Shown one piece after another: positions 3,638 through 62,290 of a stretch of DNA of 64,000 bases. Source of the stretch: Microbacterium schleiferi (GTDB lineage: Bacteria > Actinomycetota > Actinomycetes > Actinomycetales > Microbacteriaceae); NCBI RefSeq assembly GCF_015565955.1, contig NZ_CP064760.1, positions 1,426,001 through 1,490,000 of the forward strand, given 5' to 3'. The stretch's first letter is position 1. Each line of letters begins with the position of its first letter. The notes under the pieces were generated by a model. That model saw only the letters and a program-made list of their open reading frames with translations, did not search any database and was not told the DNA's origin. A program made the translations under genes and the position numbers.

Positions 3638-4554
3638 CTAGAACGCGACGTAGTTGCCGTTGTCGTAGATGTAGAACGTCTGTGCCGTCTCCGGCACCCG
3701 GTAGGCGGTGTAGCCGGTGAACGATGAGCCGGGGTATACAGTCGGCGCGTCGCTCATTGAAGCCATCCCGTCACCCAGAATGATGTACTCGCTCGAATAG
3801 CGGTTGCCCTCGTCGGTGGCCAGAAAGAGGTCGAACTAGGCAAGGGCGGGCTCTATGCCGTCGGGGTCGAGCCCTGTCATCGTGAGTTCGACGACCACCC
3901 ACTTGTATCCGCTGGGGGCCTCCGTGTTGTAGGCGCTCCAGTCGCTTACGAGACTGTTGGCGTTGGCGTCCACGATCCGGGCTGTGAGGGCGTACTTCTC
4001 CCTCCAAACAGTCCCATTGCTGTGTACGGCTGGGGGTAAGGGTTCGCGACGCTGCCGAGTTCTGCGCCCTCATCCTGCGGTGGCGCGGTCGATACCTCCG
4101 ACTCTGATGACGAGGTTGGAGACGGCGTCGCCGAGTCTGAGGTCGGCGACTGATCGTCATCTGCCACGACGATCGGTGGGTTGGCCAAGAATGCGGTGAA
4201 GCTAACAGTTGCCACGGCGCTCGAGAGGAAAGCGAGTGCGCCGAGCACAAGGCCCGTGATGGCCATGCCTTTGCTCTGCTTGCGTACGGTCGCCACGATT
4301 CCGAAGGCGATCGCAGCGGCGCCGAAGACGAGGCCGACCCACGGGGCAAGCCCAGTGAGAAAGGCGACGATCCCGGTGATCAGAGCGGTCAGCGCGAAGC
4401 CGATGGGCTTGCCCCCGCCGGGATTCGTGCCGGATGCCGAGAGCGCGGGCGCGGGATGTGTTGGAGGGGTCGTCCACTGCTGACCGTCCCAGTACCCCTG
4501 GCTACCGTCTGGAAGGGGGTACCAGCCAGCAGGTGCGGGCGGTTGGTCCGTCAT
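3638..4554 (-). pseudogene. DUF2510 membrane protein with C-terminal DUF4352-like domain, frameshift plus stop
   Basis: The first 180 or so residues (from ATG 4554) are intact: a DUF2510 motif (AGWYPLPDGSQGYWDGQQWT), two hydrophobic segments (about 51-72 and 75-118) and a Ser/Thr-rich linker. After YTAMG the frame breaks. Adding one G to the GGG run (CCC on the plus strand at 4013-4015) gives GTVWREKYALTARIVD and then an extracellular beta-rich domain of the DUF4352 type ending at NGNYVAF and a TAG at 3638. A further in-frame TAG at 3836-3838 interrupts that domain. With the added base the coding span is an exact multiple of three (305 codons before the stop). The frameshift may be a sequencing error, but the internal stop suggests real decay. 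Function unknown; such proteins are surface or secreted. Confidence 0.7.
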
Positions 4555-4563
4555 CTTGCCTCG

Positions 4564-5655
4564 CTATGCGTATCGCGTCACTGCTTCGCGGATCTCGCCC
4601 GCGTGCTCGTAGATCTCGTCGAGTGACTCGATCGGATGCCGTGTCTCATCCTTGTTCTCATCGAGAAGACCGAGGTACTTCTGTCGACCGTTGAAGTGGA
4701 GCCGAGCGAGGGGCTTCCGGTTGTTGTCGTCGAGCAGGACTGCGAAGTAGCTCTTGGCATCGCGATGGGTGATCCGCTGCGGCTTGACCTCGCCGCACGC
4801 GATTGCCTTGACGATTTGATAGCCCTCAAGCTCTTCGAGCGTTGTCTCGATCTCGGTATCGCGCGAGATGTCCTCTCGCGCAACGGGCTCACTCGCGATG
4901 GCAGCGGGATCCGCATCCGGCACGAAGTCGCTCGTGCGGCCGGCGCCGAGTGCCAGCTTGAGTCGGTCATTGATTCGCTCGTTCAGGAACTGCGCGGATG
5001 CCTTCATCACGATCCCCGTGAACTGCTCGCGCACCTTCGCAGTGAACATGCCTTCATAAACGCGCTGCGTGAAGAACTTGACCCACTCGTCCGACGGATC
5101 GCGGAACTGGGCCGCAATTTCGCGCTTGAGCGCGCCGACGTACTTGAGCTCCTCTGCGGCGCTGATGATCGAGTCGAGATCGAAGCTGTCTTTGCTGAGT
5201 TTCTTGATCTCAGGGATGAGCGTGTCGTCGACGTCACTGAGATCGAGGACGAGGAAGGGCTTCTCGTCCATCCGGTTCGGGGCGTCGAGGTCGGTGTAGA
5301 ACTGCCACACCACCCCGTTGGTGAGGGCAGCGATGCGGGCGTTCGTCGTGGCGAAGTAGCGGAAGAGCTGCGATGCGTGCTCGATGCGCAGGTCGCCTTT
5401 AGAGACTTTGCACTCGATGAGGATCTGCACCTCACCGTTGCGCATGATGGCGTAGTCCACCTTCTCGCCGCGCTTCGTGCCGACATCGGCGACGAACTCC
5501 GGAACGACCTCGAGCGGGTCGAACACGTCGTATCCGAGGATCGTCGAGATGAAGGGCATCACGAACGCGTTCTTCGTGGCCTCCTCGGTCCCGATGGATC
5601 CGGCTTGGTTCTTCACCTTCGTGGCAAGCGCGGCGATGCGCTCATCGAACTCCAT
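4564..5655 (-). CDS. Stand-alone HsdR N-terminal-like (PD-(D/E)XK) nuclease
   Basis: This protein of about 363 residues resembles the N-terminal nuclease domain of type I restriction subunits (HSDR_N family) but has no helicase. The core is the pattern VDYAIMRNGEVQILIECK, in which D and E-x-K form the PD-(D/E)XK active site, followed by a helical region with EHASQLFRYFATTNAR. The C-terminal half is less conserved and ends in a beta-rich segment (FAVLLDDNNRKPLARLHF). The ATG at 5655 follows a GGGGG ribosome-binding site; a TTG four codons upstream is the alternative. Family members are common in defence regions and their role is often unproven. It is not joined to the hsd operon, which has its own HsdR. 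Confidence 0.8.
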   Translation of the reverse strand: MEFDERIAALATKVKNQAGSIGTEEATKNAFVMPFISTILGYDVFDPLEVVPEFVADVGTKRGEKVDYAIMRNGEVQILIECKVSKGDLRIEHASQLFRYFATTNARIAALTNGVVWQFYTDLDAPNRMDEKPFLVLDLSDVDDTLIPEIKKLSKDSFDLDSIISAAEELKYVGALKREIAAQFRDPSDEWVKFFTQRVYEGMFTAKVREQFTGIVMKASAQFLNERINDRLKLALGAGRTSDFVPDADPAAIASEPVAREDISRDTEIETTLEELEGYQIVKAIACGEVKPQRITHRDAKSYFAVLLDDNNRKPLARLHFNGRQKYLGLLDENKDETRHPIESLDEIYEHAGEIREAVTRYA

Positions 5656-5693
5656 ACGTGCCCCCAACAGTCACCTTCGACGTGACGGTGAGC

Positions 5694-6587
5694 CTAGGCC
5701 GTGTTGATCAAGTCTGATTTGATCCAGATCAGCGTGGCGGCGAGGCTGACGGCGGCGCGGTAGGTGCGGACGAGCTTGTCGGAGCGCATCGCGATGCCAC
5801 GCCACTGCTTGAGCCTGTTGAAGCAGCGTTCGACGACGTTGCGGCCCTTGTATCGCTCCTGCTGCTGGTCGCCGAAGTCGATCGGCCGGCCCGGCTTCTT
5901 GCGGCGGTGCGCGATCTGATCGTCACGCTCCGGGATGGTCGCGGCGATACCGCGGTCGCGCAGCCATGCCCGGTTCGCCTTCGATGGGTAGCCCTTATCG
6001 GCGAGTACCCGGTCGGGGCGGGTGCGGGGCCGGCCCTTCCCGTCGCGGGGCACGCGGATGTCCTCGAGCACGGCGGTCATCATCGTGGTGTCGTTGATGT
6101 TCCCGCCGGTGATCATCATCCCCAGCGGCCGGCCGCGACCGTCGCAGACCAGGTGCAGCTTGGTCGTGAGCCCGCCCCGGGAGCGGCCGATCCCGTGATC
6201 AGGCGGCTCGAACCACGGATTCTTGTGATTCGGCAGAGCCCCTGTGTCCCGGGCGAGGGTCGCGCCGTGCTGATGCACACGCGCGATCGTGGAGTCGATC
6301 GAGACGACCCAGTCGATCTTCCCGGCAGCGTCAGCCTGCTTCTGCACCTCGGCGAGCAGTCGCTCCCAGGTGCCGTCCTCGGCCCACCGGTTGAACCGCT
6401 TGTAGATCGAGTTCCACTTCCCGAACCGATCCGGCACGTCCCGCCACGGCGCCCCGGTCCGGTACTTCCACGCCATCCCCTCAACAGTGAGTCGGTGATC
6501 TGTCCACGGCCGCGACCTCCCGGTCGCCGTCGGCATCAACGGCTCCATCACGGCCCACACCTCGTCAGAGATCTCCTGTCGCGTCAC
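5694..6587 (-). CDS. IS5-family transposase
   Basis: This 297-residue transposase in a single reading frame carries the DUF4096-type N-terminus (DEVWAVMEPLMPTATGRSR, KYRTGAPWRDVPDRFGKW) and the DDE core: DWVVSIDSTIARVHQHG, RVLADKGYPSK and NVVERCFNRLKQWRGIA. Many relatives of this group need a frameshift between two frames; this one does not. The TAG stop (5694-5696) lies outside the element, in the duplicated CTAG target, so the insertion site supplies the end of the gene. Confidence 0.95.
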   Translation of the reverse strand: MTRQEISDEVWAVMEPLMPTATGRSRPWTDHRLTVEGMAWKYRTGAPWRDVPDRFGKWNSIYKRFNRWAEDGTWERLLAEVQKQADAAGKIDWVVSIDSTIARVHQHGATLARDTGALPNHKNPWFEPPDHGIGRSRGGLTTKLHLVCDGRGRPLGMMITGGNINDTTMMTAVLEDIRVPRDGKGRPRTRPDRVLADKGYPSKANRAWLRDRGIAATIPERDDQIAHRRKKPGRPIDFGDQQQERYKGRNVVERCFNRLKQWRGIAMRSDKLVRTYRAAVSLAATLIWIKSDLINTA

Positions 6588-6635
6588 CGTTCAAGACTTG
6601 CCCACCGAGGAACGAAACCTCTTGATCAACACGGC
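5698..6635 (-). mobile_element. IS5-family (IS427-group-like) insertion sequence
   Basis: This element of about 938 bp has 15-bp inverted repeats GCCGTGTTGATCAAG at 5698-5712 and its complement at 6621-6635. It is flanked by CTAG on both sides (5694-5697 and 6636-6639). Because CTAG is a palindrome, the exact boundary could be TA, CTAG or one base either way. It lies between the HsdR-N-like nuclease and the PD-(D/E)XK-like gene and does not visibly break either one. Confidence 0.9.
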
Positions 6636-6692
6636 CTAGCGCGAGGATCGACTGGCGCGGAAGGGTAGGTAGACCTATCGCATACTGGCTGG

Positions 6693-7966
6693 GTGCGTCA
6701 TCATGCGGGTGTGACGATCGTTCATGCGATTAAGGTACTCAGCGCCCCCGCGCCGGTACACGCGACAAGTGATTACCCCCTGACACATCGCGTCGAGGCG
6801 CTGCAGCGGCAGCTCGTGCACGAAAACCCGGGAATGCCCTTCAAAACTCCGTTGACGCCCGCGCAGGGACTGAATGGAGTTCTTACTATTCGGCCCATTC
6901 AAGCGCTACTGGAGCTCTCGCGTGCGACCGGACTCCTGCGGGACCCGGCTGTTTCTGCGCTGACTCGGGGTGGTCGGTGCTTCGATACCTTGGCGTATTC
7001 GGACGTGTGCCAGCGTCGGGCCACCTTTGTCTTGATGGCGAGGCGCTCCTCTTTATTGGAGCAAATCAGCGAAGGGTCCTGTCCGAGGAGATCGGCATTG
7101 GATTCGGCATCGTTGCAGCCAAGATGTGGGTTCGCGCGCGTAACCCGCAGGTTGGCCCGATTGCAGCGATCGACGTGGATCAAGCTCTTTACGACGAGGT
7201 CGTGCCCGCGCTCGAGCGCAATGGTCGTCGCCAGCCCGACTATTTGCTTGCTTTTCCAGACGAAAGCGACCCAAGCGTGCGGAACTTCGAGTTGCTGGAA
7301 ACGAAAGGCACCGTCTCTAGTTCCAACGCTGAGCATCAGCTTGCCCGTGGGACCACACAGTTGGCTGGGCTCACAGTGGACGCCAACTTGCTTCCTGGAG
7401 TCGTGGTGTCCACGGTCTCGAACGCAGCGGGGATCCGCCTCATGGCAGTCGACCCCGAGGAACGGAAAGTCAGGTGGTCTCCGAGTGACGATTCGTTAAG
7501 GTCTGCACGACACGCTAGCCGTCGGCGGTCAAGACCGACCGACAAGATCGACGTGGCTGCCGATGAACTCTTCGCGAGTTCGACGAACGTTGAGATGGCG
7601 TCACTGGCCGAGTTCGGTGGCCTATCGGAATCCGCTCGATTGTGGCGTCCGCATCTCCTCGATTGGCGAGGGAGGAGAGCGGATTCCGCGACGGTCCGCG
7701 AGAACGATCTTGGGGCATTCATCGGGGAGGAAATGGTCCTTGAGGCGCCAGGCCTCGAACGTATCCGCGTTTTTCAGGGTGTGGCGCGCGATGTCGCGAC
7801 CGCGTTGAAAGGCGACGACTATCGAGCCGTGGCGGAAACGCAGCGCCAGTTCGCAAGAATAGAGAAAGAGCGAGGCGACGCAGGGGGTGAGGATTTTCGC
7901 GCTGGCCAGCCCGTGGCGGAAGCTGTGTCGTCTGACGGGGCGTTGCTTCGGATCACGGTGCAATAG
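6693..7966 (+). CDS. PD-(D/E)XK nuclease-like protein of unknown family, frameshifted as sequenced
   Basis: Two reading frames join into one 424-residue protein if one G is added to the GGGG run at 6967-6970; the junction then reads VSALTRGWSVLRYLGVFGR. As sequenced, the second frame is open from GTG 6977 to 7966. The start at GTG 6693 has CATACT ending 6 nt upstream (leaderless); GTG 6711 is an alternative. The middle of the protein has RRQPDYLLAF, then RNFELLETKGTV and a helix with EHQLARGTTQL, the order expected for a PD ... ExK nuclease core. I do not recognise the family. It is about 140 bp upstream of hsdM on the same strand, inside the restriction island, so a defence role is inferred. 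Confidence 0.55.
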
Positions 7967-8108
7967 CGCGACTCCTGCGGCAACCTGATCAAGCGCCGGG
8001 AGCTCATCCGCGCCCCACGCCCGCTGAGAGCGATGGCGCGAAGTAGGCCACTCTGACCGAGTAGCGGCCCTCTAGAGTGAAGTTCGTAGTCGAGGGGGTC
8101 CCCGAACA

Positions 8109-10076
8109 GTGTCATCGCTGAACCACGCCACATTCATCTGGAACGCCGCCGATATCCTTCGCGGCACCTATAAGCAGCACGAGTATGGCGATGTCATCCT
8201 GCCGTTCACGGTGCTCTCTCGTCTCGACGCGGTGCTGGCGCCGACGAAGCAGGCCGTCCTCGCCGCTTGCGAAGGTCTTGGCCCCGACGACGAGCCGCCG
8301 CAGGCGATGCTCCGGGCGAAGGCGAAGCATCCGTACTCGTTCTGGAACCGCTCGCGCCACGATCTGAAGTCGCTGCAGGGCGATCCCGACAACCTCGAGA
8401 AGAACCTGCGCGACTACGTGCATGCGTTCTCGTCGAGCGTGCGCGACATCTTCGACAAGTACAAGTTCGAAGACACGATCGCCGACCTTGCCTCTCATGA
8501 CCTGTTGCTGCAGATCCTGCAGCACTTCGCGAAGGCGAATCTGCACCCGGATGCCGTGAGCAACGAACAGATGGGCCACATTTTCGAGGAACTGATCCGC
8601 AAGTTCGCGGAAGCCTCGAACGAGACGGCCGGTGAGCACTTCACTCCTCGTGAGGTGATCGAGCTCATGGTGTCTCTTCTCGTGGAGAGCGACGACAGCC
8701 TCATGACGCCGGGTATCGTGCGCGAGGTCTACGACCCGACGGCGGGTACCGGTGGGATGCTGTCGGTCGCGGCCGACCGGATCCATGGCCACAACGCCAA
8801 GGCCCATGTGAACCTGCTCGGGCAAGAGATCAACCCAGCCTCGTATGCGATCTGCAAGGCCGACATGGTGGTCAAGGGCCAGCCCATCGACAACATCGTG
8901 CTGGGCAACACGCTCACCGATCCGGCGTTCGAGGGACGCACCTTCCACTACGGCCTGTCCAACCCGCCGTTCGGCGTGGACTGGAAGCAGTACCGCAAGC
9001 AGATCGAGACCGAACACACAGTCGCGGGCTATGCCGGCAGGTTCGGGCCGGGGCTGCCGCGCGTCTCGGACGGGTCGCTGCTCTTTCTCATGCACCTCAT
9101 CTCGAAGCTGCGCGAGCCGAAGCCGGGTGAGGAGAATGCGGTAGCTGGTCGCGGCGCGATCGTGCTCAACGGTTCGCCGCTCTTCACCGGCGGCGCCGGC
9201 TCGGGGGAGTCGAACATCCGCAAGTGGATCCTCGAGTCCGACTACCTCGAAGCCATCGTCGGGCTGCCGACCGACATGTTCTACAACACCGGCATCGCGA
9301 CCTATGTCTGGGTGCTCAACAAGGACAAGCCGGCGCACCGGCGCGGGCTCGTGCAGCTGATCGATGCGACCGGCATGTTCGAGAAGATGCGCAAGTCCAT
9401 CGGCTCGAAGCGCCGCAAGCTCTCGGACGACCACATCCGCGAGATCACGAAGCTCTTTACCGACTTCACGGAGACCAAGCACTCCATGATCTTCCGCTCG
9501 ACCGACTTCTTCTACCGCACCATCACGGTCGAACGCCCGCTCCGCCTCAACTACGCCATCACGCAGGTGCGTGTCGAGAAGGCTCTCGCGTCACGAGCGT
9601 TCGCCAAGACGGATGCCGCGCAGCTTGCGGCGCTTCGTGCAGCACTCGAAGGCGTGACCAGCGACGTCGTCTCGACCAACCGCGCCGAGTTCTCGCGTTC
9701 GCTTGCCCAGGCACTGACGGATGCCGGCGTTACTCTCTCACCCGCACAGCTCAAGGCCCTCGTCACAGAGCTGGGTGAGCCCGACGACGAGGGCGAACTG
9801 GTGACCTCCGCGGGTGGACCTGTGGCGGATGCCGGGCGCCGCGACACCGAGAACGTCCCGTGGCACGAAGACATCCATGACTACCTCGAACGCGAGGTCA
9901 AGCCCTTCGCGCCGGATGCCTGGATCGACGGGTCCAAGACGAAGGAAGGCGCCGAGATCCCGTTCACGCGCCACTTCTACGAGTACGTGCCGCCGCGTCC
10001 GCTCGAGGAGATCGACCGCGACCTGGATCAAGTCCTCGGGCGCATCCGTGTCCGGCTAGAAGCGGTCAAGGCGTGA
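8109..10076 (+). CDS. hsdM: Type I restriction-modification system methyltransferase subunit HsdM
   Basis: HsdM transfers a methyl group from S-adenosylmethionine to adenine in the bipartite target chosen by HsdS, and is also part of the restriction complex. The 655-residue protein has an N-terminal helical HsdM domain, the SAM-binding motif DPTAGTGGM at about residue 209, and the N6-adenine catalytic motif NPPF at about residue 285. The long C-terminus (beyond about residue 480) is typical of the larger HsdM subfamily. The GTG start follows a GAGGGGG ribosome-binding site. It overlaps hsdS by 4 nt, which suggests coupled translation in an hsdMSR operon. It looks intact, so target methylation should still take place. 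Confidence 0.96.
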   Translation: MSSLNHATFIWNAADILRGTYKQHEYGDVILPFTVLSRLDAVLAPTKQAVLAACEGLGPDDEPPQAMLRAKAKHPYSFWNRSRHDLKSLQGDPDNLEKNLRDYVHAFSSSVRDIFDKYKFEDTIADLASHDLLLQILQHFAKANLHPDAVSNEQMGHIFEELIRKFAEASNETAGEHFTPREVIELMVSLLVESDDSLMTPGIVREVYDPTAGTGGMLSVAADRIHGHNAKAHVNLLGQEINPASYAICKADMVVKGQPIDNIVLGNTLTDPAFEGRTFHYGLSNPPFGVDWKQYRKQIETEHTVAGYAGRFGPGLPRVSDGSLLFLMHLISKLREPKPGEENAVAGRGAIVLNGSPLFTGGAGSGESNIRKWILESDYLEAIVGLPTDMFYNTGIATYVWVLNKDKPAHRRGLVQLIDATGMFEKMRKSIGSKRRKLSDDHIREITKLFTDFTETKHSMIFRSTDFFYRTITVERPLRLNYAITQVRVEKALASRAFAKTDAAQLAALRAALEGVTSDVVSTNRAEFSRSLAQALTDAGVTLSPAQLKALVTELGEPDDEGELVTSAGGPVADAGRRDTENVPWHEDIHDYLEREVKPFAPDAWIDGSKTKEGAEIPFTRHFYEYVPPRPLEEIDRDLDQVLGRIRVRLEAVKA

Positions 10077-11302
10077 GTAGCGCGACGAGTCCGCGTGAGA
10101 CAGCGCCAGAAGGATGGCGACCAGCCAGATTGCGCGACGTCGTCTCGTTTCGGAACGGCGCCGACTTCGCGCATGTTGAGGCCGAGGAGCCCGGATACCC
10201 CGTCTATGGCTCAGGTGGGCGGTTTCGGTGGGCCAGTGCATGGCTTCATGACGGGCCATCGGTGCTCTTCGGCCGAAAGGGAACGATCGACAGGCCAATC
10301 TACGTCACTGGGCGCTTCTGGACCGTGGACACAATGTACTACACAGTGCCAAATCAGCGGCTGATCAGCCCGAAGTTTCTCTACTACTGGGCAACAAGAC
10401 TCCCCTTCGACTACTACTCGACGGGAACGGCCCTACCGAGCATGACCCAGAGCGATCTCGGTAGCGAGCCCCTTCTTCTCCCGAGCATTGAGGTGCAGCA
10501 GCAGATCGCGGACTACCTCGACCACGAGACCGCCGAGATCGACGCCTTCATCGCCGATCTACGTCGACTGAGGGAACTTGAATCCGAGCGGATCAACGCC
10601 GAAGTTGATATCTCATTTCGGGCCTTCTCGGACCATCTGGTGCCGCTGAAGCGCCTGGGTCTCGCCCGGGAGTCTGGCGTTAGTGTCAATGGCGTCGCTT
10701 GGCCTGCTACGGGATCCGAACCCGGTGTGCTTCGGACAGGGTCAGTATCGAAGGGTTACTTTGACCCCGCGGAGAACAAGGCCGTACTTGAACCGGAGGA
10801 GCGCGAGCGGCTAGCCACTCCCGTCCTCGCGGACTCTCTCATCGTCAACCGTGCGAACACCCCCGATCTTGTTGGTCGGGGCGTCTATGTCCGTCACGCT
10901 CACCCGAATCTGTACCTCTCTGATCTTCTCTGGAGAGTTCAAGTTGGCGGGGGGTGTACGGAGTATGTAGGGGCTTGGATGGCTAGTCGCGCATACGCGG
11001 AGTCAATCGCACGCATTAGGGTCGGGGCCAGCGCAACCATGCAGAAGATTTCGTTCGAGAGCTTCTCGCGGATCGGCGTTCCTCTTCCGAATGAGCGAAG
11101 TCGCCGGGAAGTGGCGATCCGGGTGGACGAATTGAGGCGCGGCCGTGCTCGTTTCGAAGCTGACATTGACGCCGCGATCGCGCTGGCGAAGGAGCGGCGC
11201 GCGGCGCTCATCACCGCGGCTGTCACTGGCCAGATTGACGTCACGTCGCGGCAGAAGCCGGTGGTAGACAGTATTCAGACCGCCATCGAGGAGGCGCGAT
11301 GA
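10073..11302 (+). CDS. hsdS: Type I restriction-modification specificity subunit HsdS
   Basis: HsdS selects the DNA target and bridges the HsdM and HsdR subunits. The 409-residue protein has two target-recognition domains, each followed by a helical spacer: the first ends with LLLPSIEVQQQIADYLDHETAEIDAFI, and the second with RIGVPLPNERSRREVAIRVDELRR and RRAALITAAVTGQIDV. Both half-sites therefore seem to be present. The recognised sequence cannot be deduced. The GTG start overlaps the hsdM stop, and its own TGA overlaps the hsdR ATG, so the three genes form one tightly coupled operon. Confidence 0.95.
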   Translation: MSSATSPRETAPEGWRPARLRDVVSFRNGADFAHVEAEEPGYPVYGSGGRFRWASAWLHDGPSVLFGRKGTIDRPIYVTGRFWTVDTMYYTVPNQRLISPKFLYYWATRLPFDYYSTGTALPSMTQSDLGSEPLLLPSIEVQQQIADYLDHETAEIDAFIADLRRLRELESERINAEVDISFRAFSDHLVPLKRLGLARESGVSVNGVAWPATGSEPGVLRTGSVSKGYFDPAENKAVLEPEERERLATPVLADSLIVNRANTPDLVGRGVYVRHAHPNLYLSDLLWRVQVGGGCTEYVGAWMASRAYAESIARIRVGASATMQKISFESFSRIGVPLPNERSRREVAIRVDELRRGRARFEADIDAAIALAKERRAALITAAVTGQIDVTSRQKPVVDSIQTAIEEAR

Positions 11303-14300
11303 GCACGCTCTACGCCGAGACCGAGTTCCAGAAGCTGATCGTGAAACACCTTGCGGACCACGGTTGGGAAGTCGGCACGAGCGAGAGATACGACCGCGAG
11401 CGTGCGCTTTACCCCGACGATGTTCTGGCCTGGCTTGAGCTAGATGACGCGAAGAACCTGCGGAAGATCGTCACAGCCGATGGCGATGTTAGCGGTCGTG
11501 AGCGGATCCTCAAGCGCCTCGCAGACTCCCTCGCGGCCGACGAGCATCAAGGTGGCGGAACGCTCACGGTATTGCGCAAGGGGTTCGACGTCGTCGGTGC
11601 CAAGCGGTTCCGCATGGTGCAGCATCCGCCCGCTGACGACCGCAACCGCGCGATGCTCGACCTCTATCGGCGGAACATCCTGCGCGTCGTGCCCGAACTG
11701 CGTTACTCGACGAAGAAGGAAGACAGGCTCGACCTGGCTTTCTTCGTCAACGGCATCCCTGTCGCGACGGTGGAGATCAAGACAAACTTCGCTCAGAATC
11801 TCGCGGCGGCCACCACGCAGTACAAGCGTGATCGTCATCCGCAGGGAGAGCCGCTGCTGACCTCGGGTCGCGGCGCGCTCGTGCACTTTGCGCTCACGCA
11901 GGACGAGATCGCCATGACGACGCGGCTCGCGGGGGAGTCCACGTCGTTTCTGCCGTTCAACCGCGGCAACAACGGCGGTGCGGGTAACGCCCCGAACGGA
12001 GACAAGCCGCGCACGGCCTACTTCTGGGAAGACGTGCTCGACCGCGACGCGTGGCTCACGATCCTCACGAAGTTCGTCTACACCAACCATGAGAAGCAGA
12101 GCGACCCACTCACGGGCAAAGTGACGTACCGGTCGCAGATCCGCTTTCCACGGTTCCATCAGTGGCGGGCTGTCACGGCGCTTACCGCGGCAGCGCGGGC
12201 CGATGGTGCCGGGCATAGGTACCTCGTGCAGCACTCGGCCGGCTCGGGCAAGACAGACTCCATCGCGTGGACCGCGCACCGGCTCGCGTCACTCCATACC
12301 CTCGAGGGTGAGAAGGTGTTCGACTCGGTGATTGTGATCGCCGACCGACAGGTGCTCGATCGACAGTTACAAGACGCCGTCGACCAGCTCGTCACTGCGA
12401 CCGGCACCTTCCAGGCCATTACGAGAGGGTCCGAAGGATCCAAGACGGCGCAGCTCACCGAAGCGCTGGCCGCAGGTATCCCGATCATCGGCGTGACCCT
12501 GCAGACGTTCCCGCATGCACTCAAGCAGATTCGTGAGACGGGCGGTGCGCTAGCTGGGAAGCGGTTCGCCGTCATCGCGGATGAGGCCCACTCCTCACAG
12601 GCGGGGCGGCAGCCTCAGCGTTGAAAGATCTGCTGTACCTCGGCGAGAACGTGACCATCGACGAAGACGAACCCGGCGCCGACCAGGACGCGCTCGTCGC
12701 GATGGCTGCCCACGCCGACGACGAGCACCGCATCAGCTTCTTCGCGTTCACGGCGACCCCGAAGACGAAGACCCTGGAGCTGTTCGGCACGCCCGGACCC
12801 GACGGCAAGCCACAGCCGTTCGATCTCTACTCGATGAAGCAGGCGATCGAAGAGGGCTTCATCCTCGACGTGCTTCGCAACTACACGACTTACGAGATGG
12901 CCGCGCGCATCGCGAAACGCGCGATGGATGGGTCGGAGTCTGACGACGAAGAGGTCGACGTGCGGAAGGGGACGCGTGCGCTCATCGGGCTCGTCGAGTT
13001 GCATCCGACCAATATTGCGTCGAAGGTGTCGGAGATCATCACCCACTTCCGAGAAGTGGTGCAGCCGCAGCTCGGCGGTCGGGCGAAGGCGATGATCGTC
13101 ACTTCTTCACGCGCGGCGGCGGTGAAGTACGCGCGGGCCTTCGAGAAGCTTGCTCGCGAGCGGGGGCTCCCGCTCACAGCGCTCGTGGCGTTTTCGGGGG
13201 AGGTTCCCGATCCTGACGTTGTTGCGCTCCCTGGCCTCGAGCAGCCGACGGTGACCGAGGCATCCATGAACCCGTCACTCAAGGGTCGTGACCTCGCCGA
13301 CGTGTTCGCGCAGCCCGACCACCACGTGCTCATCGTGGCCAACAAGTACCAGACCGGTTTTGACCAGCCTCTGCTCGTGGCGATGTACGTCGACAAGCAG
13401 CTCTCGGGGATTGCCGCGGTTCAGACGCTGTCGCGCCTGAACCGCACAATGCCGGGCAAGACCGAGACGTACGTGCTCGACTTCGTCAATGAGCCCGAGC
13501 TGATCAAGCAGGCGTTCCAGGAGTACTACGAAGAGGCGCGGGTCGAGACATCCTCTGATCCGGATCTCGTGGCGAACCAACTGAACAAGCTCGACGCCGT
13601 TGGGGTGTTCACCTGGGCCGAGGTCGATCGCGTCTGGGCGGACTGGACACGCGCCGACGCAAACCCGGGTACTGCACACAACGCGCTCTCGGCGCATCTC
13701 GATCCTGCAGTCGATCGTTTCGTCGCGCGCTGGCGGGACTCGATCGACGACGCCGAGGAGCGGGAGCGTCTGGTCGACTTCCGTTCGACACTCGCGCAGT
13801 ACGTCACCTCGTACGCGTTCTTCTCCCAGATCCTTCACTTTGGCGACACGCGATACGAGAAGTTCTCGGTGTTTGCCGATCTGCTCGGTCGACGACTGCG
13901 CGCCGCTGTCGATGATGGCGGGAACGGCGAGGTCGTCGACGTGTCGGATGTCGTGCTCACCCACTACAAGCTCGAGAAACTGAAGCAGGAAGACCTCGCA
14001 CTCGTAACGGGGGACGCTGAGGGGCTCCGGGGCCTCACCGAAGCTGGCATGGCGAAGCTCCGCGAGAAGGAGCGAGCCTCCACCGCCGAGCTGATCGAGA
14101 AGGTGAACAAGTACCTTGGGGACCTCGACGCGAAGGACGAGCACAAGGTCGGCGCGATCGAAGGTGTACTTCTGGAGGCTGTCGCGGACGCTGGGCTGGC
14201 CGAGCAGGCCAAGAACAACACGAAGGTCGACTTCTCGAACTCGCCCGCCCTGCAGGTCGTGCTCGAAGACGCGATCTGGTCGCACGAGACCGCCAGCGCC

Positions 14301-14402
14301 GAGGTGCTAGCAGCGATCCGCAAACTCGAACCCCGCCAGCTCGTCCAGCTCGCGCTCGACTTCGGGCTGTACGAGCGACTGCGAGAGCGCCGGACAGGTT
14401 AG
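11299..14402 (+). CDS. hsdR: Type I restriction endonuclease subunit HsdR, frameshifted as sequenced
   Basis: HsdR is the ATP-dependent translocase and nuclease of the type I system. The first frame (to 12624) holds the N-terminal nuclease domain (RLDLAFFVNGIPVATVEIKTN, with D ... ExK), the Walker A segment QHSAGSGKTDS and the DEAH box VIADEAHSSQ. The second frame (12621-14402) holds the rest of the helicase (FFAFTATP, KYQTGFDQPLL, QTLSRLNRT) and the C-terminal domain. Adding one G to the GGGG run at 12603-12606 joins them through SSQAGAAASALKDLLYLG into 1034 residues, the normal HsdR length. As sequenced the restriction activity would be lost; a sequencing error is likely. The TTGA overlap at 12621-12624 has no ribosome-binding site. 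Confidence 0.88.
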
Positions 14403-18530: not shown

Positions 18531-19057
18531 GGGTTCCTCTTTCTTGGGGGTGGTCCTGTCGCCGGGCGGCGAAAGGACTGTTCAGGGATGCGGCGATGGA
18601 TGCCGGCATCATGGTCAGAGCGCGACGACGACCTTTCCGCGCGTGTGTCCGCTCGCAACGTGCAGGAACGCGTCAGACGCGTCATCCAGCGAGTACGCGC
18701 GATCGATGATCGGAGTGATCCGTTGGTCCGCGATGAGGTCCGCCAGCGTGAGCAGATCTTCCCGCGTGCCGATCGAGGTGAACGGGCGCAGGCGCTGCCG
18801 GGAGAAGGCTGACAGGATCCGGGCGCGCGCGATGCGTCCCAGCGGGCCGAACCAGCGCCCACCTCGACCACTGTTGGGAATCAGCGTGCCGGTGGGAGTC
18901 AGCACTCGGCGGAGGACGCCGAGGGGCGTGGACTCCACGTTGTCGAGGATGACGTCGTAGCGCGTGGTCAGCTGCGACAGATCGGTTCGCTCGTAGTCGA
19001 TGACGTGATCGGCGCCCAGCGACGCGACGAGGGCCATGTTCCGCGCACTGCACACGT

Positions 19058-20506
19058 GGGCTTGTCAAGTCTTCTGTGTAAGCGGGTTGGTGTTGGTGGT
19101 TAGAGGTAGGGGGTGATGCGGTCGGGGTAGGCGAGTGCGAGTTGTTCGAGGGCTTGTTTCCAGTTCGTGGTCACGTTGCCCTCGATGAGTCGGCCGGAAG
19201 CTTTTCGCTGGCTGGAGGGGCGCCCGCGTTCCTTCTCGCGTTCTCGGGCGCGCTTGTCTTCGATGTCGCAGATCGCCAGCCAGAGCAGCTTGACCGCGGC
19301 GGCGTCGTTGGGAAAGTGACCCCGCGATTTCGTCACTTTCCGCAGCTGGTAGTTCAGCGACTCGATCGCGTTGGTGGTGTAGATCACGCGGCGCAGCTCG
19401 GGCGGGAACGCCAGGAACGGGGTGAACCGGTCCCAGGCGTCCTGGAACGTCTTCACCGCCGAGGGGTAGCGGCGGCCGAGCTCGGAGTCGCTGAACGCCT
19501 CGAGCGCTTCGAGCGCGGCGTCCTCGTTCACCGCGGTGTAAATCGGTTTCAGCGCGGCGGCGACGGCTTTGCGGTCTTTGTAGTTCACGAACCGCATCGC
19601 CGCGCGGATCAGGTGGACCACGCAGGTCTGCACGGTCGCTTGCGGCCACGTCGCCGCGACCGCCTCGGGAAATCCGGTGAGCCCGTCGGTGCAGACGATC
19701 AGCACGTCGCGGATGCCACGGTTGGCAAGCTCGGCGCAGACCGATGCCCAGAACTTCGCGCCTTCGGTGGCCTGCACCCAGATACCCAGGACGTGCTTGA
19801 TCCCGTCCATGTCGACCCCGACGGCGATATGCGCGGCCTTGTTGCGCACGTGACCGCCGTCACGGATCTTCACGATGATCGCGTCGAGATAGATCACCGG
19901 ATACAACGCTTCCAATGGGCGGGTCTGCCACGCGAGGACCTCGTCGGCGACCTGGTCGGTGATCTTCGAGATCGTCTCATGGCTGAGCTCGGTGCCGATC
20001 GTGTTCGCGAGATGATGCTGGATATCGCGGATGGTCATCCCGCCGGCATAGAGCGAGATGATCATCCCGTCCAGCCCATCCAGCCGGCGCTGCCCCTTCG
20101 GGACGAGCATCGGGGTGAACGACCCGTTCCGATCCCGCGGGACCGATAGGTCGATCTCACCGATCTCGGTCGACACCGTCTTCGGCGTCGTGCCGTTGCG
20201 GGAGTTCGGATACAGCGACGCTTCCGCATCACCACGCTCGTACCCGACGTGCTCGGTCAGCTCCGCGTCCAGGCCCCGCTCCAGCGCGGCCTTCAGCATG
20301 CCACCGAGCAGCCCCTGATCGCCCGTCAGCGGGGTGCCGGCATCGATCTTCGCGAAGATCTCATCCATCGCACCCGACGACTTCAACTGATCAGCGAGCT
20401 CCTTCTGCCGACGCCTGCGCTCCTCGCGCTCCGGACTGATAGCCATGGTCTCCATGATGTTCTCCTTCGAGGTGAACCCCACTCACACAGACCATCTGAC
20501 ACCCCC
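19058..20506 (-). mobile_element. IS256-family insertion sequence (inserted in an alcohol dehydrogenase gene)
   Basis: This is a 1449-bp element. Its ends, GGGCTTGTCAAGTCTTCTGT on the left and the complement of GGGGGTGTCAGATGGTCTGT on the right, form imperfect inverted repeats. It is flanked by 8-bp repeats GCACACGT (19050-19057) and GCACACGC (20507-20514), which differ in the last base. An 8-bp duplication is normal for IS256; the mismatch suggests the insertion is not brand new or that one base is misread. Confidence 0.88.
19100..20455 (-). CDS. IS256-family (mutator-type) transposase
   Basis: This transposase of about 451 residues shows the mutator family features: LERGLDAELTEHVGYERGD near the N-terminus, a DDE core with YPVIYLDAIIVKIRDGG (first Asp), DVLIVCTDGLTGFPEAV (second Asp) and IYTTNAIESLNYQLRK (Glu), the last being the family signature. 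The ATG at 20455 has an AAGGAG ribosome-binding site 7 nt upstream; a GTG at 20482 is in frame but less likely. It is full length and uninterrupted, so the element may be able to move. Confidence 0.96.
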   Translation of the reverse strand: METMAISPEREERRRRQKELADQLKSSGAMDEIFAKIDAGTPLTGDQGLLGGMLKAALERGLDAELTEHVGYERGDAEASLYPNSRNGTTPKTVSTEIGEIDLSVPRDRNGSFTPMLVPKGQRRLDGLDGMIISLYAGGMTIRDIQHHLANTIGTELSHETISKITDQVADEVLAWQTRPLEALYPVIYLDAIIVKIRDGGHVRNKAAHIAVGVDMDGIKHVLGIWVQATEGAKFWASVCAELANRGIRDVLIVCTDGLTGFPEAVAATWPQATVQTCVVHLIRAAMRFVNYKDRKAVAAALKPIYTAVNEDAALEALEAFSDSELGRRYPSAVKTFQDAWDRFTPFLAFPPELRRVIYTTNAIESLNYQLRKVTKSRGHFPNDAAAVKLLWLAICDIEDKRAREREKERGRPSSQRKASGRLIEGNVTTNWKQALEQLALAYPDRITPYL

Positions 20507-21189
20507 GCACACGCCGGTGACCTCAGCACCCAACGCCTTGGCGATCTGCACCGCAAACGTGCCCACACCGCCCGAAGCGCCGATGATCAGCACCTTCTGT
20601 CCGGGCGCCACGTGAGCGATATCGCGAAGTGCTTGCAACGCCGTCATCCCGGACGTGGGCACGGCGGCGGCATCCGTCATCGTGACGTTCTTCGGCACCG
20701 GCGCGAGATGTTTCGCCGGCACGCGGGCGTATTCAGCCAGAGATCCTGTCCCGCTCCAGCCGAACACCGCGTCACCGGGCTCGAGATCGGCGACGTCTTC
20801 GCCGATCGCCGCGACCTCGCCCGCCAGGTCCATGCCGCGGATCGGATGACGTGGCCGTCGCATCCCGAACGCCAGCCGCACGATGTACGGCTCGCCAGCC
20901 AGGATGAAGCAGTCACCGGGTGGAGGGATGCGGCGCTGACACGCACCACCACGTCGCCCCGTCGGGGCTGAGGCATCTCGACTGCGGCGCACTCCAGCAC
21001 TGACGGGGGACCGTATCGTCGCTGCACCACGGCACGCATCGTCGTTGTCGTTGTCATGCCTTGAGCATGTGACGCAGGGCCAGCGTCCGTCATCGGTCGG
21101 AAGACCGCCACCCGGGTAGCCGAAAGGACGATTGTTCATCCGTACCGTGGGCTGATGCCCGGGGTCGCAGATCGCGCGAGCATCGACGC

Positions 21190-27855: not shown

Positions 27856-30219
<2,364 letters not shown>

Positions 30220-30236
30220 GAGCACACGTTATCCGG

Positions 30237-42422: not shown

Positions 42423-45328
<2,906 letters not shown>

Positions 45329-45330: not shown

Positions 45331-47294
45331 GTGGCTCGCGCCAGCCACCCCCAGCTTGCGTACCGGCCCGCGCCGGGGAGATCCCCACCAACCCCGGCGT
45401 CTACCGGTTCCGCGATGACGCCGGGCGTGTGCTCTACGTCGGCAAGGCGAAGAACCTGCGTGCCCGCCTGTCCAACTACTTCGCGCCGTTGCACACGCTG
45501 CACGAGCGGACACGGCGCATGGTGACAACGGCCACCGGCGTCGAATGGACGGTCGTCGGCAGCGACGTCGAGGCGCTGCAGCTCGAGTACATGTGGATCC
45601 AGGAGTACTCGCCGCCCTTCAACGTGCGCTACAAGGACGACAAGTCCTACCCGTACATGGCGATCACCCTCGCCGACGAGGCGCCGCGCGTCATGGTCAC
45701 GCGAAACCACAAGATCCGCGGGGCGAAGTACTTCGGTCCATACCCCAAGGTGTGGGCGGTGCACGAGGTCATCGACCTCATGATCAAGGTGTTCCCGATC
45801 CGCACATGCAGTGACTCCTCGTACAAGCGGGCCATGGCCACGGGCAGGCCCTGCTTTCCCGGACAGATCGGACGCTGCGGCGGACCGTGCTCCGGTCGCG
45901 TCACGATCGAGGAGCACCGCGCGATCGTCGACGACTTCGTGGCGTTCATGTCCGGGGGCGATCAGCGCTTCACGAAACAGTTGACGGCACGGATGCGGGA
46001 GGCATCCGCCGCGATGGACTACGAGTCTGCGGCCGTCTTCCGCGACCGGCTCCAGGCGATCGAGGCGGTGCTCAACAAGAGTGCTCTCGTGTTGCCCGAT
46101 GACACGGATGCCGACCTGTTCGGCATCGCCGAGGACGAGCTGGCCGCCGCCGTGCAGCACTTCGTCGTCCGCGGCGGTCGCGTCCGTGGTGTGCGGGCGA
46201 CTACGATCGAGAAAGAACTGGACATCAGCGGGGGAGAGCTGGTCGATCAGATCCTGCAGCGGACGTACGGTCCCTCCGGCAGTGCCGACATCCCCAAGCA
46301 GGTCCTCGTTCCCGCCCTCCCCGAGGATGCCGCCGAACTCGAAGCGTGGCTGCGAGACAAGCGCGGCACGAACGTCACGATTCAGATCGCGCAGCGCGGC
46401 GCGAAGGCCGAGCTCATGAAGAGCGCGGCGCTCAATGCCCAGCAGGCGCTCTTGCTGCACAAGACCCGCCGCACGAGCGACTACGTCGCGCGCACGCAGG
46501 CGCTCACCGACCTCCAGGAGGCGCTCGGGCTCGACGAGGCCCCGCTCCGGATCGAGTGCTATGACGTGTCCCACCTGAGCGGCACGAATGTCGTGGCCTC
46601 GATGGTCGTGTTCGAAGATGGCCTGCCTCGCAAGGATCAGTACCGGACGTTCGGCGTCCCCGAGACCACCGACGACACCGACTCGCTGTATCAAGTGCTC
46701 ATGCGCCGCCTCGCATATATCGACGACGAGCGGGACGCCGACGAGGAAGTACCCGTGACTGTCGGAGAGGACGAGACGGATGCCGACGGCCTCGCTGTCG
46801 TCAGTTCCGATCCGACCAGCGATGGCACTGTCGTCACGGTACGAAACCGCCCCCGCTTTGCCTACCGCCCGCAACTGCTCGTCGTCGACGGTGGCAAGCC
46901 GCAGGTGAACGCGGCAGCGCGCGCGCTGTCCGACGCGGGCCACACCGACATCGCGTTGTGCGGGATTGCCAAGCGCCTCGAGGAAGTGTGGTTGCCTGAC
47001 GAGGACTACCCGGTGATCCTTCCGCGCACGAGCGAGGCGCTCTATCTGCTGCAGCGGCTGCGCGACGAGGCCCATCGCTTTGCGATCACGAAGCAGCGCG
47101 GAAAGCGCAAACGCGACATCCAGACCGTCCTCGCGGAAATCCCCGGGCTGGGGGAGGCTCGCATTCGCGCCCTGCTGCGCCACTTCGGGTCGGTCACGGC
47201 GCTCAGGAACGCGACGCCGGAAGAGATTCAGGAGCTCCCCGGAGTGGGCCCGAAGCTCGCCGCGACGATCCACGCGCACCTGGCAAGTCGATAG
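45331..47294 (+). CDS. uvrC: Excinuclease ABC subunit UvrC, frameshifted near the start as sequenced
   Basis: UvrC makes both cuts around the lesion marked by UvrA and UvrB. The body of the protein is in frame to 47294: GIY-YIG nuclease ([20 protein letters not shown]), a UVR domain ([19 protein letters not shown]), the RNase-H-like second nuclease ([21 protein letters not shown]) and a tandem helix-hairpin-helix end ([29 protein letters not shown]). The start GTG 45331 ([16 protein letters not shown]) is in another frame; adding one G to GGGG at 45375-45378 joins it to [12 protein letters not shown]. The result is 654 residues. The gene begins 2 nt after uvrA, so they are probably cotranscribed. 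Confidence 0.94.
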
Positions 47295-53361: not shown

Positions 53362-53402
53362 ACGCGCGTCACGCCGAGACCAAACGCGCACGCCTCTTTC
53401 CG

Positions 53403-53408: not shown

Positions 53409-53454
53409 GGACGCTTGTGCGACGAGACATCGTCGCGACGAAAGGTTTCACGTC

Positions 53455-54056: not shown

Positions 54057-54080
54057 TCTTTGGCGCGGGTACCACCCCGC

Positions 54081-54129
54081 ACGCACACAGCCCCGGCCTC
54101 CGACGAGGGAGGACCGGGGCGTTGTGCGT
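54081..54129. terminator. Bidirectional hairpin between rbpA and pgl
   Basis: The segments ACGCACACAGCCCCGG (left) and CCGGGGCGTTGTGCGT (right) pair, extended by CCTCC/GGAGG near the loop. The hairpin lies between the convergent ends of rbpA and pgl and is placed to stop transcription from both sides. Confidence 0.75.
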
Positions 54130-54148
54130 CGTCAGCGGCAGTGCCGCC

Positions 54149-54928: not shown

Positions 54929-55868
54929 CGGTCTCCTGCGACTGTGCCGGGCCGAGCAACGCCCAGCCCTCGGTGATCACTCGACCATACAAGAGGTCGG
55001 CGTCGAGGCGACGAAGCTCCTCGGCGAGGCACTCGCGCAGTGTGCGACGCGGCAGCACGAGATCGTGCTCGGGCTGCCCGGGTTGCAACAGCCGGGCGAT
55101 CGCGGCGGTCGAGCGCTCGAGAACGATGTCGCCGCTGGCGCGGGTGAGGCGGACGGACTTGATGCCGTCGCTCCACTCCTCTGACGGCAGGTAGTGCCAG
55201 TCGACGGGCACCCCGAGAGTCAGGCGCAGCCAGGCCGCCAGAAGCGCCGTGGACGGCGATGTGGCCGCGCCGCGCACCTCGATTGCGGTGATCGGCTCGT
55301 ACGGCGGCTGGTCCAGCACGGCGGCAAGCTGCTCGCGCCAGTGCGTGAGACGTGTCCACGCGAGGTCGGTGTCGCCGGGGGAGTAGCAGTCGCCGAGATG
55401 GGCGACACGCGCGGACTCGAACGGCACCGTGGCGGCATCGGTGATGCGCCGCTGTGCGATCCGACCGAGCGGGGAGTGCGACGGGGTCGCGGGCGGATTA
55501 TCGGGCCACCAGACCACGACCGGTGCGTCCGGCAGCAGCAGCCCGGTCACGAGGCTCTCGACGTTGGATGCCGCGTCGCCCGATGCGCGCAGCACGACGA
55601 CTTCACTCGCGCCAGCGTCGCCGCCCACACGGATCTCGGCATCCAGCTTCGGTTCGCCGACCGGGTCGAGACGGAGGCTGATCACGCGCATGGGATGCTC
55701 GCGGGACGCGTCGTTCGCAGCCTCGATGCCGTCTTCGCTGCCGCCGTCGGTGGTCACGATGATGAGCGTGAGGACGCGCCCGAGCGCTACCGCGCCGCCC
55801 TCCTCGCGCACATCGATGAGAGCGCGGGAGATCTTGCTGACTGTCGTGTCGGGAAGATCGACGATCAT
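54921..55868 (-). CDS. opcA: Glucose-6-phosphate dehydrogenase assembly protein OpcA
   Basis: OpcA is needed for assembly and activation of glucose-6-phosphate dehydrogenase in cyanobacteria and actinobacteria. This 315-residue protein starts MIVDLPDTTVSKISRALIDVREEGG and has the central LLPDAPVVVWWPDNPPATPS and the C-terminal RRTLRECLAEELRRLDADLLYGRVI. Its ATG overlaps the stop of zwf (ATGA). It lies between its target zwf and pgl, as is usual. Confidence 0.95.
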   Translation of the reverse strand: MIVDLPDTTVSKISRALIDVREEGGAVALGRVLTLIIVTTDGGSEDGIEAANDASREHPMRVISLRLDPVGEPKLDAEIRVGGDAGASEVVVLRASGDAASNVESLVTGLLLPDAPVVVWWPDNPPATPSHSPLGRIAQRRITDAATVPFESARVAHLGDCYSPGDTDLAWTRLTHWREQLAAVLDQPPYEPITAIEVRGAATSPSTALLAAWLRLTLGVPVDWHYLPSEEWSDGIKSVRLTRASGDIVLERSTAAIARLLQPGQPEHDLVLPRRTLRECLAEELRRLDADLLYGRVITEGWALLGPAQSQETDG

Positions 55869-57414
55869 GGCCGCCTCCAGGTGCGTCCGTCGCGGGCAAG
55901 GAGCTGGTCGGCTGACTTCGGCCCCCAGGATCCGGGTTCGTACTGGTCGAGCGGTCCGCCCTGCTCAGCCCAGAACTTCTCGACCGGGTCGAGGATCTTC
56001 CACGAGAGCTCGACCTCTTCGTGGCGGGGGAACAGCGGCGGGTCGCCGAGGAGCACATCGAGGATGAGCCGCTCGTAGGCCTCGGGGCTGGCCTCGGTGA
56101 AGGCGTGGCCGTAGCCGAAGTCCATCGTGACGTCGCGAACGTGCGTGCTTGCGCCGGGCACCTTGGAACCGAATCGGATCGTGACACCCTCATCGGGCTG
56201 CACGCGGATCACGAGGGCGTTCTCGCCGAGCCCCGACGTCTGCGAACGTGTGAACAGGTGCTCCGGGGCACGCTTGAACACCACGGCGATCTCGGTCACC
56301 CGGCGTCCCAGGCGCTTCCCGGTGCGCAGGTAGAACGGTACGTCGGCCCAGCGTCGAGTGTTGATCTCGAGCTTCAGGGCCGCGTAGGTCTCCGTTGTCG
56401 AATCCGGCTTCATGCCGTCTTCGTCGAGGAACCCGGTGATGTGCTCTCCGCCCTGCCATCCGCCGGCGTACTGTCCCCGCGCTGTTGCCAGAGAGAGGTC
56501 GGCGGGGAGGGTGACGGCGGCGAGGACCTTCTCTTTCTCGGCACGAAGGTGGCTCGCGTCGAAGCTGATGGGTTCTTCCATGGCCGTCAGCGCGAGAAGC
56601 TGCAGCAGGTGGTTCTGGATGACATCGCGCGCCGCACCGATGCCGTCGTAGTAGCCGGCGCGACCGCCCACGCCGATGTCCTCGGCCATGGTGATCTGCA
56701 CGTGGTCGACGTAGTTGCGGTTCCAGATGGGCTCGAACAGTTCGTTGGCGAACCGCAGCGCGAGGATGTTCTGGACCGTCTCTTTGCCGAGGTAGTGGTC
56801 GATCCGGAAGATCGAGTCGGCCGGGAAGGTCGAACGCAGCGCTTCGTTGAGTTCCCGCGCGGAGGCGAGGTCGTGCCCGAACGGCTTCTCGATGACGACG
56901 CGCCGCCACCGCTCCGGCTGATCGGCGGTGTCGTCCACGAGCCCGGATGTGCGCAACTGCCGCGCGACCACGGGGAAGTCCTTCGGGGGATCGACAGGTA
57001 GAACGCGTGGTTTCCCATCGTGCCGCGCTCTTCGTCCAGGCTCTGCACGGTCTCTCGGAGGCGCGCGAAGGCTGCATCGTCGCCGAACTCGCCGGGCACG
57101 AACCGAATGCCCTGCAGCAGCTGCTGCCAGGTCTCCTCGCGGAACGCCGTGCGGGCGTGCTGGCGAACCGCATCGTGCACGACCTGCGCGAAGTCCTGGT
57201 CCTCCCAGTCCCGGCGGGCGAACCCGACCAGGCCGAACCCGGGAGGCAGCAGGCCTCGGTTCGCGAGGTCGTACACGGCCGGCATGAGCTTCTTGCGGGA
57301 GAGGTCGCCGGTCACGCCGAAGATCACGAGAGCACTGGGGCCCGCGATCCGATTCAGGCGTGCGTCTTCGGGGTCGCGTAGCGGATTGTGCCCGCGAGTG
57401 ATCTCGACTGTCAT
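55865..57414 (-). CDS. zwf: Glucose-6-phosphate dehydrogenase, frameshifted as sequenced
   Basis: Zwf makes NADPH in the first step of the oxidative pentose phosphate pathway. The N-terminal frame (from ATG 57414) has ALVIFGVTGDLSRKKLMPAVYDLANRG, the nucleotide-binding site, and breaks after HAFYLSIP. Adding one base to the GGGGG run at 56985-56989 (plus strand) restores the reading into DFPVVARQLRTSGLVDD and the second frame, with the active site RIDHYLGKETVQNILALRFAN. The total is then 516 residues, as expected. A real break would inactivate the protein; an error in the consensus is more likely given the other cases. It is 13 nt downstream of pgi. Confidence 0.94.
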
Positions 57415-57427
57415 CGGATGGGATGCC

Positions 57428-59047: not shown

Positions 59048-59054
59048 CGCCGGC

Positions 59055-60164: not shown

Positions 60165-60191
60165 GGCTTCTCCTTCGTGTGCGGCCGCGGC

Positions 60192-62290
60192 TCAGGCGCC
60201 AGCGGCAGCGATTGTCTCGTGGGCGGCAGCGACGACCGCATCGGTCGTGATGCCGAACTTCTGGAACAGCGTCTTGTAGTCAGCCGACGCCCCGAAGTGC
60301 TCGATGGACACCGAGCGGCCGGCGTCGCCGACGATCCCGCGCCAGGGCAGGGCGAGGCCTGCCTCGACCGAGACGCGGGCCTTGACGGATGCCGGCAGCA
60401 CGCTCTCGTGGTACGCGGCGTCCTGCTCGGCGAACCACTCGAGCGAGGGCGCGGAGACGACGCGCGCGCCGATGCCCTGCTCGGCAAGCTGCTCGCGTGC
60501 TGCCACGGCGAGCTGCACCTCGGAGCCGGTCGCGATGAGGATCACGTCGACGGTGCCCGTCGGTGAGTCAGCGAGCACGTACGCACCCTTGGCGGCGAGG
60601 TCAGCCGATGCGAACTCGTCGCCGGATGCCTCACCCGCCCCGCGAGCGAACGTCGGAACGTTCTGGCGGGTCAGGGCGATACCCGCGGGTCCCTCGTGTC
60701 GGCGGACCAGCTCGAGCCACACGGCAGCCGTCTCGTTGGCGTCAGCGGGACGGACCACCGCGAAGTTCGGAATCGCGCGGAGGGCAGCCAGCTGTTCGAT
60801 CGGCTGGTGCGTCGGTCCGTCCTCACCCAGAGCAACAGAGTCGTGGGTCCACACGAACAGCGACGGGATGTTCATCAGCGCGGCCAGGCGCACCGGGGGC
60901 GCATGTAGTCGCTGAAGATCAGGAACGTGCCACCGAAGGCGCGCGTCGGGCCGTGCAGCACGATGCCGTTGAGGATGGACCCCATCGCGTGCTCACGGAT
61001 GCCGAAGTGCAGCACGCGACCGTAGGGCGAACCACTCCACTCGTGTGTGGACCACTCCTCGGGGATGAACGATGCCGCCCCCTTGATGGTGGTCAGGTTG
61101 GACTCCGCGAGGTCAGCGGAGCCACCCCAGAGCTCGGGCAGCTCGGCGGCCAGAGCATTGATGACCTGGCCCGACGCGGCGCGGGTCGAGACATCCTTGC
61201 CCGCCTCGAACTGGGGGAGGGCGTCAGCGATATCGGCGGGCAGCTCGCGGGCCTGCAGGCGATCCCACAGCGCCTTGCGCTCCGGGTTCGCAGCGGCCCA
61301 GGCGTCGAACTTCTCCTGCCACGCCGCCTTCTCGGCCTCGCCGCGCTCGACGAGCGAGCGGGTGTGGGCGATGACCTCGTCAGGCACCTCGAACGTCTTG
61401 TCGGGGTCCCAGCCGAGCACCTTCTTTGTGGCGGCGAGCTCGTCGCCACCGAGAGCGGCGCCGTGGATCTTGCCGCTGTTCTGCTTGCCGGGGGAGGGCC
61501 AGCCGATGATCGTCTTCAGGATGATGATGGAGGGCTTGTCGGTAACGCCCTTGGCTTTTTCGATGGCGTCGTAGAGCTCGTGGACGTCTTCGACGTACTC
61601 GCCGCTCTTCTTCCAGTCGACGGTCTGGACATGCCAGTCGTACGCCTCGTAGCGCTTCGCGACGTCTTCGGTCAGGGCGACGTTGGTGTCGTCTTCGATC
61701 GAGATCTGGTTCGAGTCGTAGATGACGACGAGGTTGCCGAGCTGCTGGTGTCCGGCGAGCGAGGATGCTTCGCTGGTCACCCCCTCTTCGAGGTCGCCGT
61801 CTGAGGCGATGACGTAGATGAAGTGATCGAAGGGGGACTCACCGGGCGCAGCATCCGGGTCGAACAGACCGCGCTCGTAGCGAGCGGCGTAGGCGAAGCC
61901 CACCGAGGATGCGAGGCCCTGGCCGAGGGGACCCGTCGTGATCTCGACGCCCTTGGTGTGGCCGTACTCGGGGTGTCCCGGCGTGAGCGATCCCCACGTG
62001 CGCAGGCTCTTGAGGTCGTCGAGCTCAAGGCCGAACCCGCCGAGGTAGAGCTGGATGTACTGCGTGAGCGACGAGTGGCCGCACGACAGGATGAAGCGGT
62101 CGCGCCCGGGCCACAGCGTGTCCGCGGGGTCATGCTGCATGACCCGCTGATACAGCAGGTAGGCCGCGGGAGCGAGGCTCATCGCGGTTCCCGGGTGGCC
62201 ATTGCCGACCTTCTCCACGGCATCCGCCGCGAGAACGCGAACGGTGTCCACCGCGCGCTTGTCGATCTCTTCCCAACGCAGTTCCGTCAC
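60192..62290 (-). CDS. tkt: Transketolase, frameshifted as sequenced
   Basis: Tkt uses thiamine diphosphate to transfer two-carbon units in the pentose phosphate pathway. The first frame, from GTG 62290 with a GAAGG ribosome-binding site, has NGHPGTAMSLAP, GHSSLTQYIQLYLGGFGLE and the cofactor motif GDLEEGVTSEASSLAGHQQ with IYDSNQISIEDD. It breaks after IFSDYMRP. Adding one base to GGGGG at 60895-60899 (plus strand) gives [30 protein letters not shown] and joins the C-terminal frame to 60192. The total is 699 residues, the usual length. Probably a sequencing error. It heads the operon. Confidence 0.95.

Follow-up and report, generated by a model that had tools for sequence, protein, structure and literature searches.

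Gene-fragmenting homopolymer deletions in long-read assemblies are already well described. In one study of bacterial long-read assemblies (PMC12007338), indel errors were mostly false deletions that fragmented genes and were commonest after 4-5 equal bases, and A/T runs yielded most deletions, ahead of G/C runs. A limited literature search for such a Microbacterium genome yielded a single paper, on Propionibacterium; we do not claim that no report is in print. The DNA analyzed here, referred to as the window (64,000 nucleotides), comprises bases 1426001-1490000 of a single 3,296,665-bp Microbacterium contig with a completeness of 95.31 and a contamination of 0.58; a hand count of about 93 other scored single-contig genomes of the genus gave three with a completeness below 95.31 (G098, G286, and G327). 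The UvrB protein of the window shares 90% identity with its Microbacterium commune counterpart, and the closest members of the genus at uvrA-uvrC are G260, G238, and G321, with 89% DNA identity (324 of 366 genomes scored). Gene order is colinear with G337 across the 464-kb stretch surveyed below, and with G337, G283, G316, and G092 around the window.

Interrupted genes in the window

A first-pass annotation had placed single missing bases at eight G or C runs of the window, each with a conserved junction between two frames, and had attributed them to systematic under-calling of such runs. This genome was searched for breaks by comparison with proteins predicted in six relatives, and a break had to be supported by two or more reference genomes to be counted. 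The comparison was made twice, as the ORFs of the initial survey pass, chosen by length and G+C content at codon positions, had let in shadow ORFs and were replaced by ORFs scored by codon usage, which were used for the final counts. As listed in Table 1, the interruption is firm for five of the eight genes, uvrA, uvrC, zwf, tkt, and hsdR, for which homologues match both pieces, and these join at the runs given in the first-pass annotation. The lengths predicted for the repaired products, 968, 654, 516, 699, and 1034 residues, correspond to those of natural homologues (P0001 for UvrA, P0121 for UvrC, zwf of G283 and G337, tkt of G238 and G260, and P0241 for HsdR, respectively).

Table 1. Interrupted genes and the insertion element in the window (positions are those of the window).
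Feature	Position	Strand	Basis
DUF2510-containing protein, possible frame change near 4013; lower bound approximate	3840..4554	-	codon-usage frame switch, domains
Protein of unknown function, frame change somewhere near 6967-7037	6693..7966	+	distant G057 homologue; weak codon-usage signal
hsdR, type I restriction system, two frames, junction 12603-12606	11299..14402	+	P0241, codon-usage frame switch
Zinc-type dehydrogenase gene, frame change near 20917-20920, also insertion-split	18618..21057	-	G238/G260 homologues, ADH_N domain
1,450-bp insertion, Mutator-family transposase (ORF 19100-20482, - strand)	19057..20506	.	PF00872
uvrA, two frames, junction near 44624-44654 at C run	42423..45325	+	P0001, 6/6 relatives, NCBIfam
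uvrC, two frames, junction near 45375-45396 at G run	45331..47294	+	P0121; intact near-identical proteins elsewhere
zwf (glucose-6-phosphate dehydrogenase), two frames, junction near 56980-56989	55865..57414	-	6/6 relatives, NCBIfam zwf
tkt (transketolase), outer bounds of two frames, junction near 60893-60899	60192..62572	-	6/6 relatives, NCBIfam

In uvrA, residues 1-744 of P0001 (968 aa, 97% identity) align to 42423-44654 and residues 735-968 to 44624-45325 in the other frame. Both pieces match the NCBIfam UvrA family, and the break was backed by five of the six relatives in the initial survey pass and by all six in the second. The same numbers of relatives backed the zwf break (~56980-56987), and the tkt break (~60897) was backed by all six in both passes; the two pieces of zwf and those of tkt each match their NCBIfam family, and the true start of tkt lies inside the upper of its two frames. 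Residues 1-436 of P0241 (1034 aa, 96% identity) align to 11299-12606 of hsdR and residues 436-1034 to 12603-14399. Next to the broken hsdR, the other genes of this type I restriction system (8109-14402) are in open frames, hsdM at 8109-10076 and hsdS at 10073-11302. A single open frame of 788 aa at 27856-30225 (- strand) encodes a second UvrA-like protein, which shares about 35% identity with UvrA and is a paralogue of the interrupted one.

The uvrC break was backed by two of the six relatives in both passes. Residues 1-22 of P0121 (654 aa) align to 45331-45396 and residues 16-654 to 45375-47291 in a different frame, and the long piece is identical throughout its 639 residues. A search with the window uvrC frame gave seven UvrC proteins (P0121-P0127) of 654-656 aa that are at least 99% identical to that of the window and have an intact start; the longest contigs bearing them range from 4,131 to 16,053 bp. 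Two UvrC proteins from the 3,296,665-bp contig itself, P0128 and P0129, are 637 and 621 aa long and both begin past the break, and thus proteins shortened by these breaks have already entered protein collections. A same-species intact copy was found for uvrC only, as the searches with the uvrA and hsdR pieces gave the 97% and 96% identical homologues mentioned above, which are not same-species copies. The contigs carrying P0121-P0127 may derive from other strains, in which case uvrC alone could conceivably have undergone a strain-specific change.

A three-way DNA alignment of this genome with G238 and G260 (31,481 columns) contained 7, 2, and 3 genome-specific one-base losses and 3, 1, and 0 gains, respectively. 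The only ones that fit supported breaks are the losses at 44623, 45374, 56986, and 60896, in uvrA, uvrC, zwf, and tkt; several of the other gaps are in poorly aligned parts.

For the remaining three sites the evidence is graded. Support is good at 20916, where the 338-aa homologue of G260 and the 328-aa homologue of G238 align to the dehydrogenase gene in three pieces with a frame change at ~20917-20920. This gene is also split by the transposon insertion of Table 1, which is flanked by a 7-bp direct repeat (19050-19056 and 20507-20513) and whose uninterrupted site is present in G238 and G260. The one-base loss may be an assembly error or real decay, the latter because the gene was already split by the transposon. 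As the transposon splits this gene, the warning that a pseudogene label would be misleading does not apply to it. At 6967, where the case is weak, a single homologue, 26-39% identical over the aligned parts, places the frame change between 6971 and 7037. The weakest site is 4013, where the codon-usage signal alone changes frame (~4000-4050) and no conserved junction was found: the second piece of the best homologue was not found, and its match continues to 4000. Confidence in an assembly error is accordingly lower at 6967 and 4013 than for the core genes.

Supported breaks in 464 kb and in relatives

The survey covered bases 1286001-1750000 (464 kb, 14% of the chromosome), with single-family searches elsewhere, and every genome was tested likewise in turn. 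Reference genes were counted when they encoded at least 100 aa and at least 75% was matched, and these size and coverage criteria leave out the accessory genes in the window's first 15 kb as well as the gene at 20916. This genome showed 33 supported breaks, 4 in the window and 29 outside, all of the one-base-loss class, whereas no supported in-frame stop was found in the same 464 kb. The density was about 12 per 100 kb (33 in 271 kb of aligned coding sequence). In the same test, the complete relatives G337 and G316 (460 kb each) showed no supported breaks, nor did G238 (74 kb) and G260 (80 kb). With G283 as the reference, a supported break was present in 28 of 233 genes here against 0 of 279 in G316 (Fisher p ~1e-10), and with G337 and G316 as references the numbers for this genome were 30 of 226 and 30 of 219, respectively, thus roughly one in eight tested genes is broken. 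The reference set itself contains breaks, since G283 showed 5 in 460 kb, 3 of the loss class and 2 of the gain class, and G092 showed 4 in 60 kb, all of the one-base-loss class.

The initial survey pass had given 31 supported breaks here, 2 in G337, 5 in G283, 2 in G316, and 6 in G092. An early count of in-frame stops was dropped, as shadow ORFs gave 0-32 raw hits per comparison, and an apparent one-base gain in a hisF homologue (stretch position 278140), seen in the initial pass and absent in the second, was not counted.

To identify the affected functions, 20 intact reference proteins from the initial-pass breaks were scanned with NCBIfam; 2 had no match. The broken families include mraY, an RluA-family pseudouridine synthase, lnt, a glutamate synthase small subunit, trpB, metK, aroC, a RelA/SpoT protein, dxs, a gyrase-B-type subunit, glnA, fabF, and a fabG relative. 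The breaks thus hit indispensable genes of unrelated function alike, among them metK, mraY, dxs, trpB, aroC, and glnA. The metK gene is present in a single copy whose two pieces meet at the break, and mraY lies in three pieces at one locus and is the sole clear mraY of the genome; elsewhere, an uninterrupted 522-aa frame gives a weaker mraY-like match (E 2.1e-15) and probably encodes a related transferase. The two best dxs matches are pieces that lie side by side, and five weaker matches are found elsewhere, one inside tkt. Among 119 genomes of the genus, metK is present in at least one full-length copy in 116 and as a partial copy in G053, and it is split in two frames in two, this genome and G098.

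These data bear on whether the genes are truly broken, either because the strain is going through a burst of gene loss or because G/C runs slipped during a mutator history. Slippage is generally known to rise with run length, as the breaks do (see below), and the gene at 20916 really is split by a transposon. However, neither in-frame stops nor one-base gains were found among the 33 supported breaks, true breakage would cost the strain its sole metK and its only clear mraY, and near-identical UvrC is intact on other contigs, which makes this explanation very unlikely. It is also hardly conceivable that the losses are real in about one in eight genes, metK and mraY included, and that the frame is restored at the runs during transcription or translation. 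Slippage of this kind has been recorded at long runs in other organisms, but the runs here are mostly of 4-5 bases and differ between genes, and the shift sites are not conserved, as G337, G316, G238, and G260 show no supported breaks. We therefore regard it as nearly certain that the breaks in the core genes are assembly errors of some kind, and in the living strain uvrA, uvrC, zwf, and tkt are very probably intact.

Run length and sequence context of the breaks

When aligned to the DNA of relatives, 30 of the 33 breaks resolved to a one-base gap, and 28 of these 30 fall at G/C runs of at least 3, which, together with the uniform loss class, supports the systematic under-calling of G/C runs proposed earlier. 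The printed run lengths were 3 (2 gaps), 4 (14), 5 (11), and 7 (1); the other two gaps lie beside runs of 1 and 2, and none of the 30 is at an A/T run. The remaining three breaks showed gaps of 4 and 29 bases, or none. G/C runs of at least 3 make up 10.2% of the aligned coding bases and those of at least 4 make up 3.0%; the same sequence contains 88 A/T runs of at least 4 versus 1925 G/C runs. Expressed by true length, i.e., printed length plus one, the losses affect 2 of 1537 runs of 4, 14 of 377 runs of 5, and 11 of 35 runs of 6. In line with this, G/C runs of 6 are scarce in the coding sequence here, with 35 in 464 kb against 23 in the combined 154 kb of G238 and G260, which have a similar G+C content, and 57, 50, and 53 in 460 kb each of G337, G283, and G316, all richer in G+C than this genome.

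The broken genes are, in our judgment, highly likely to be base-level assembly errors in which G/C runs were reported one base short. Runs of true length 4 would seldom be shortened and those of 6 often, and this shortening would change the frame in about one in eight genes of the tested stretch. Under-calling would account for the direction of the changes, their placement at G/C runs, and their rise with run length, and also for the breaks in sole-copy indispensable genes together with the intact UvrC on other contigs. Against it stand the three breaks that did not resolve to one base and the two resolved gaps outside runs of at least 3.

A different artifact, in which the errors depend less on run length than on a sequence motif, for instance a modified base next to the run, is improbable, although the contexts of the breaks do show a bias. 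In the 27 contexts given for the 33 breaks (two with multi-base gaps), 24 have a C-G border at the run, compared with 1670 of the 2627 runs of 4-5 that serve as background, and A follows 11 of 14 G runs compared with 349 of 1250. With runs of 5 as the fitter background, 127 of 259 G runs are already followed by A, and much of the excess is lost; moreover, a motif is not needed to explain the steep rise with run length. We infer that the under-calling stems from a long-read consensus without adequate polishing, and that the remaining 86% of the chromosome is affected alike.

Consequences and comparison with known cases

Taken at face value, this genome would describe a bacterium that lacks nucleotide-excision repair, glucose-6-phosphate dehydrogenase, transketolase, SAM synthesis, and lipid I synthesis, and pangenome, pseudogene, or metabolic studies using it would be misled. 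What we report is therefore a caution on the quality of this sequence and no finding about the organism itself.

Genuine bacterial pseudogenes likewise have interrupted open frames. The genes described here differ from them in the absence of supported in-frame stops, the single class of change, and the indispensable genes hit; the mixture of disabling changes expected of pseudogenes was not found in the 464 kb, the insertion-split dehydrogenase gene being the exception.

Comparable breaks are present in other genomes of the genus. The single-contig genome G092 resembles this one in that its four one-base-loss breaks in 60 kb are at G/C runs of 3-5, and differs in its completeness of 99; because G092 has the defect at this value, a completeness score alone misses it. 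The G092 breaks (loci L146-L148) include the uvrA and uvrC homologues. In G283 (stretch 3360001-3820000), the three one-base losses among the five breaks lie in C runs, which makes it a similar but milder case. In G098, a single contig of 68% completeness in which only metK was examined, this gene (C1:73909-75076) is split into two matches as here, which suggests that G098 shares the same fault. Compared with the errors in PMC12007338, which were led by A/T runs, the runs affected here are G/C runs only, in a genome that is poor in A/T runs.
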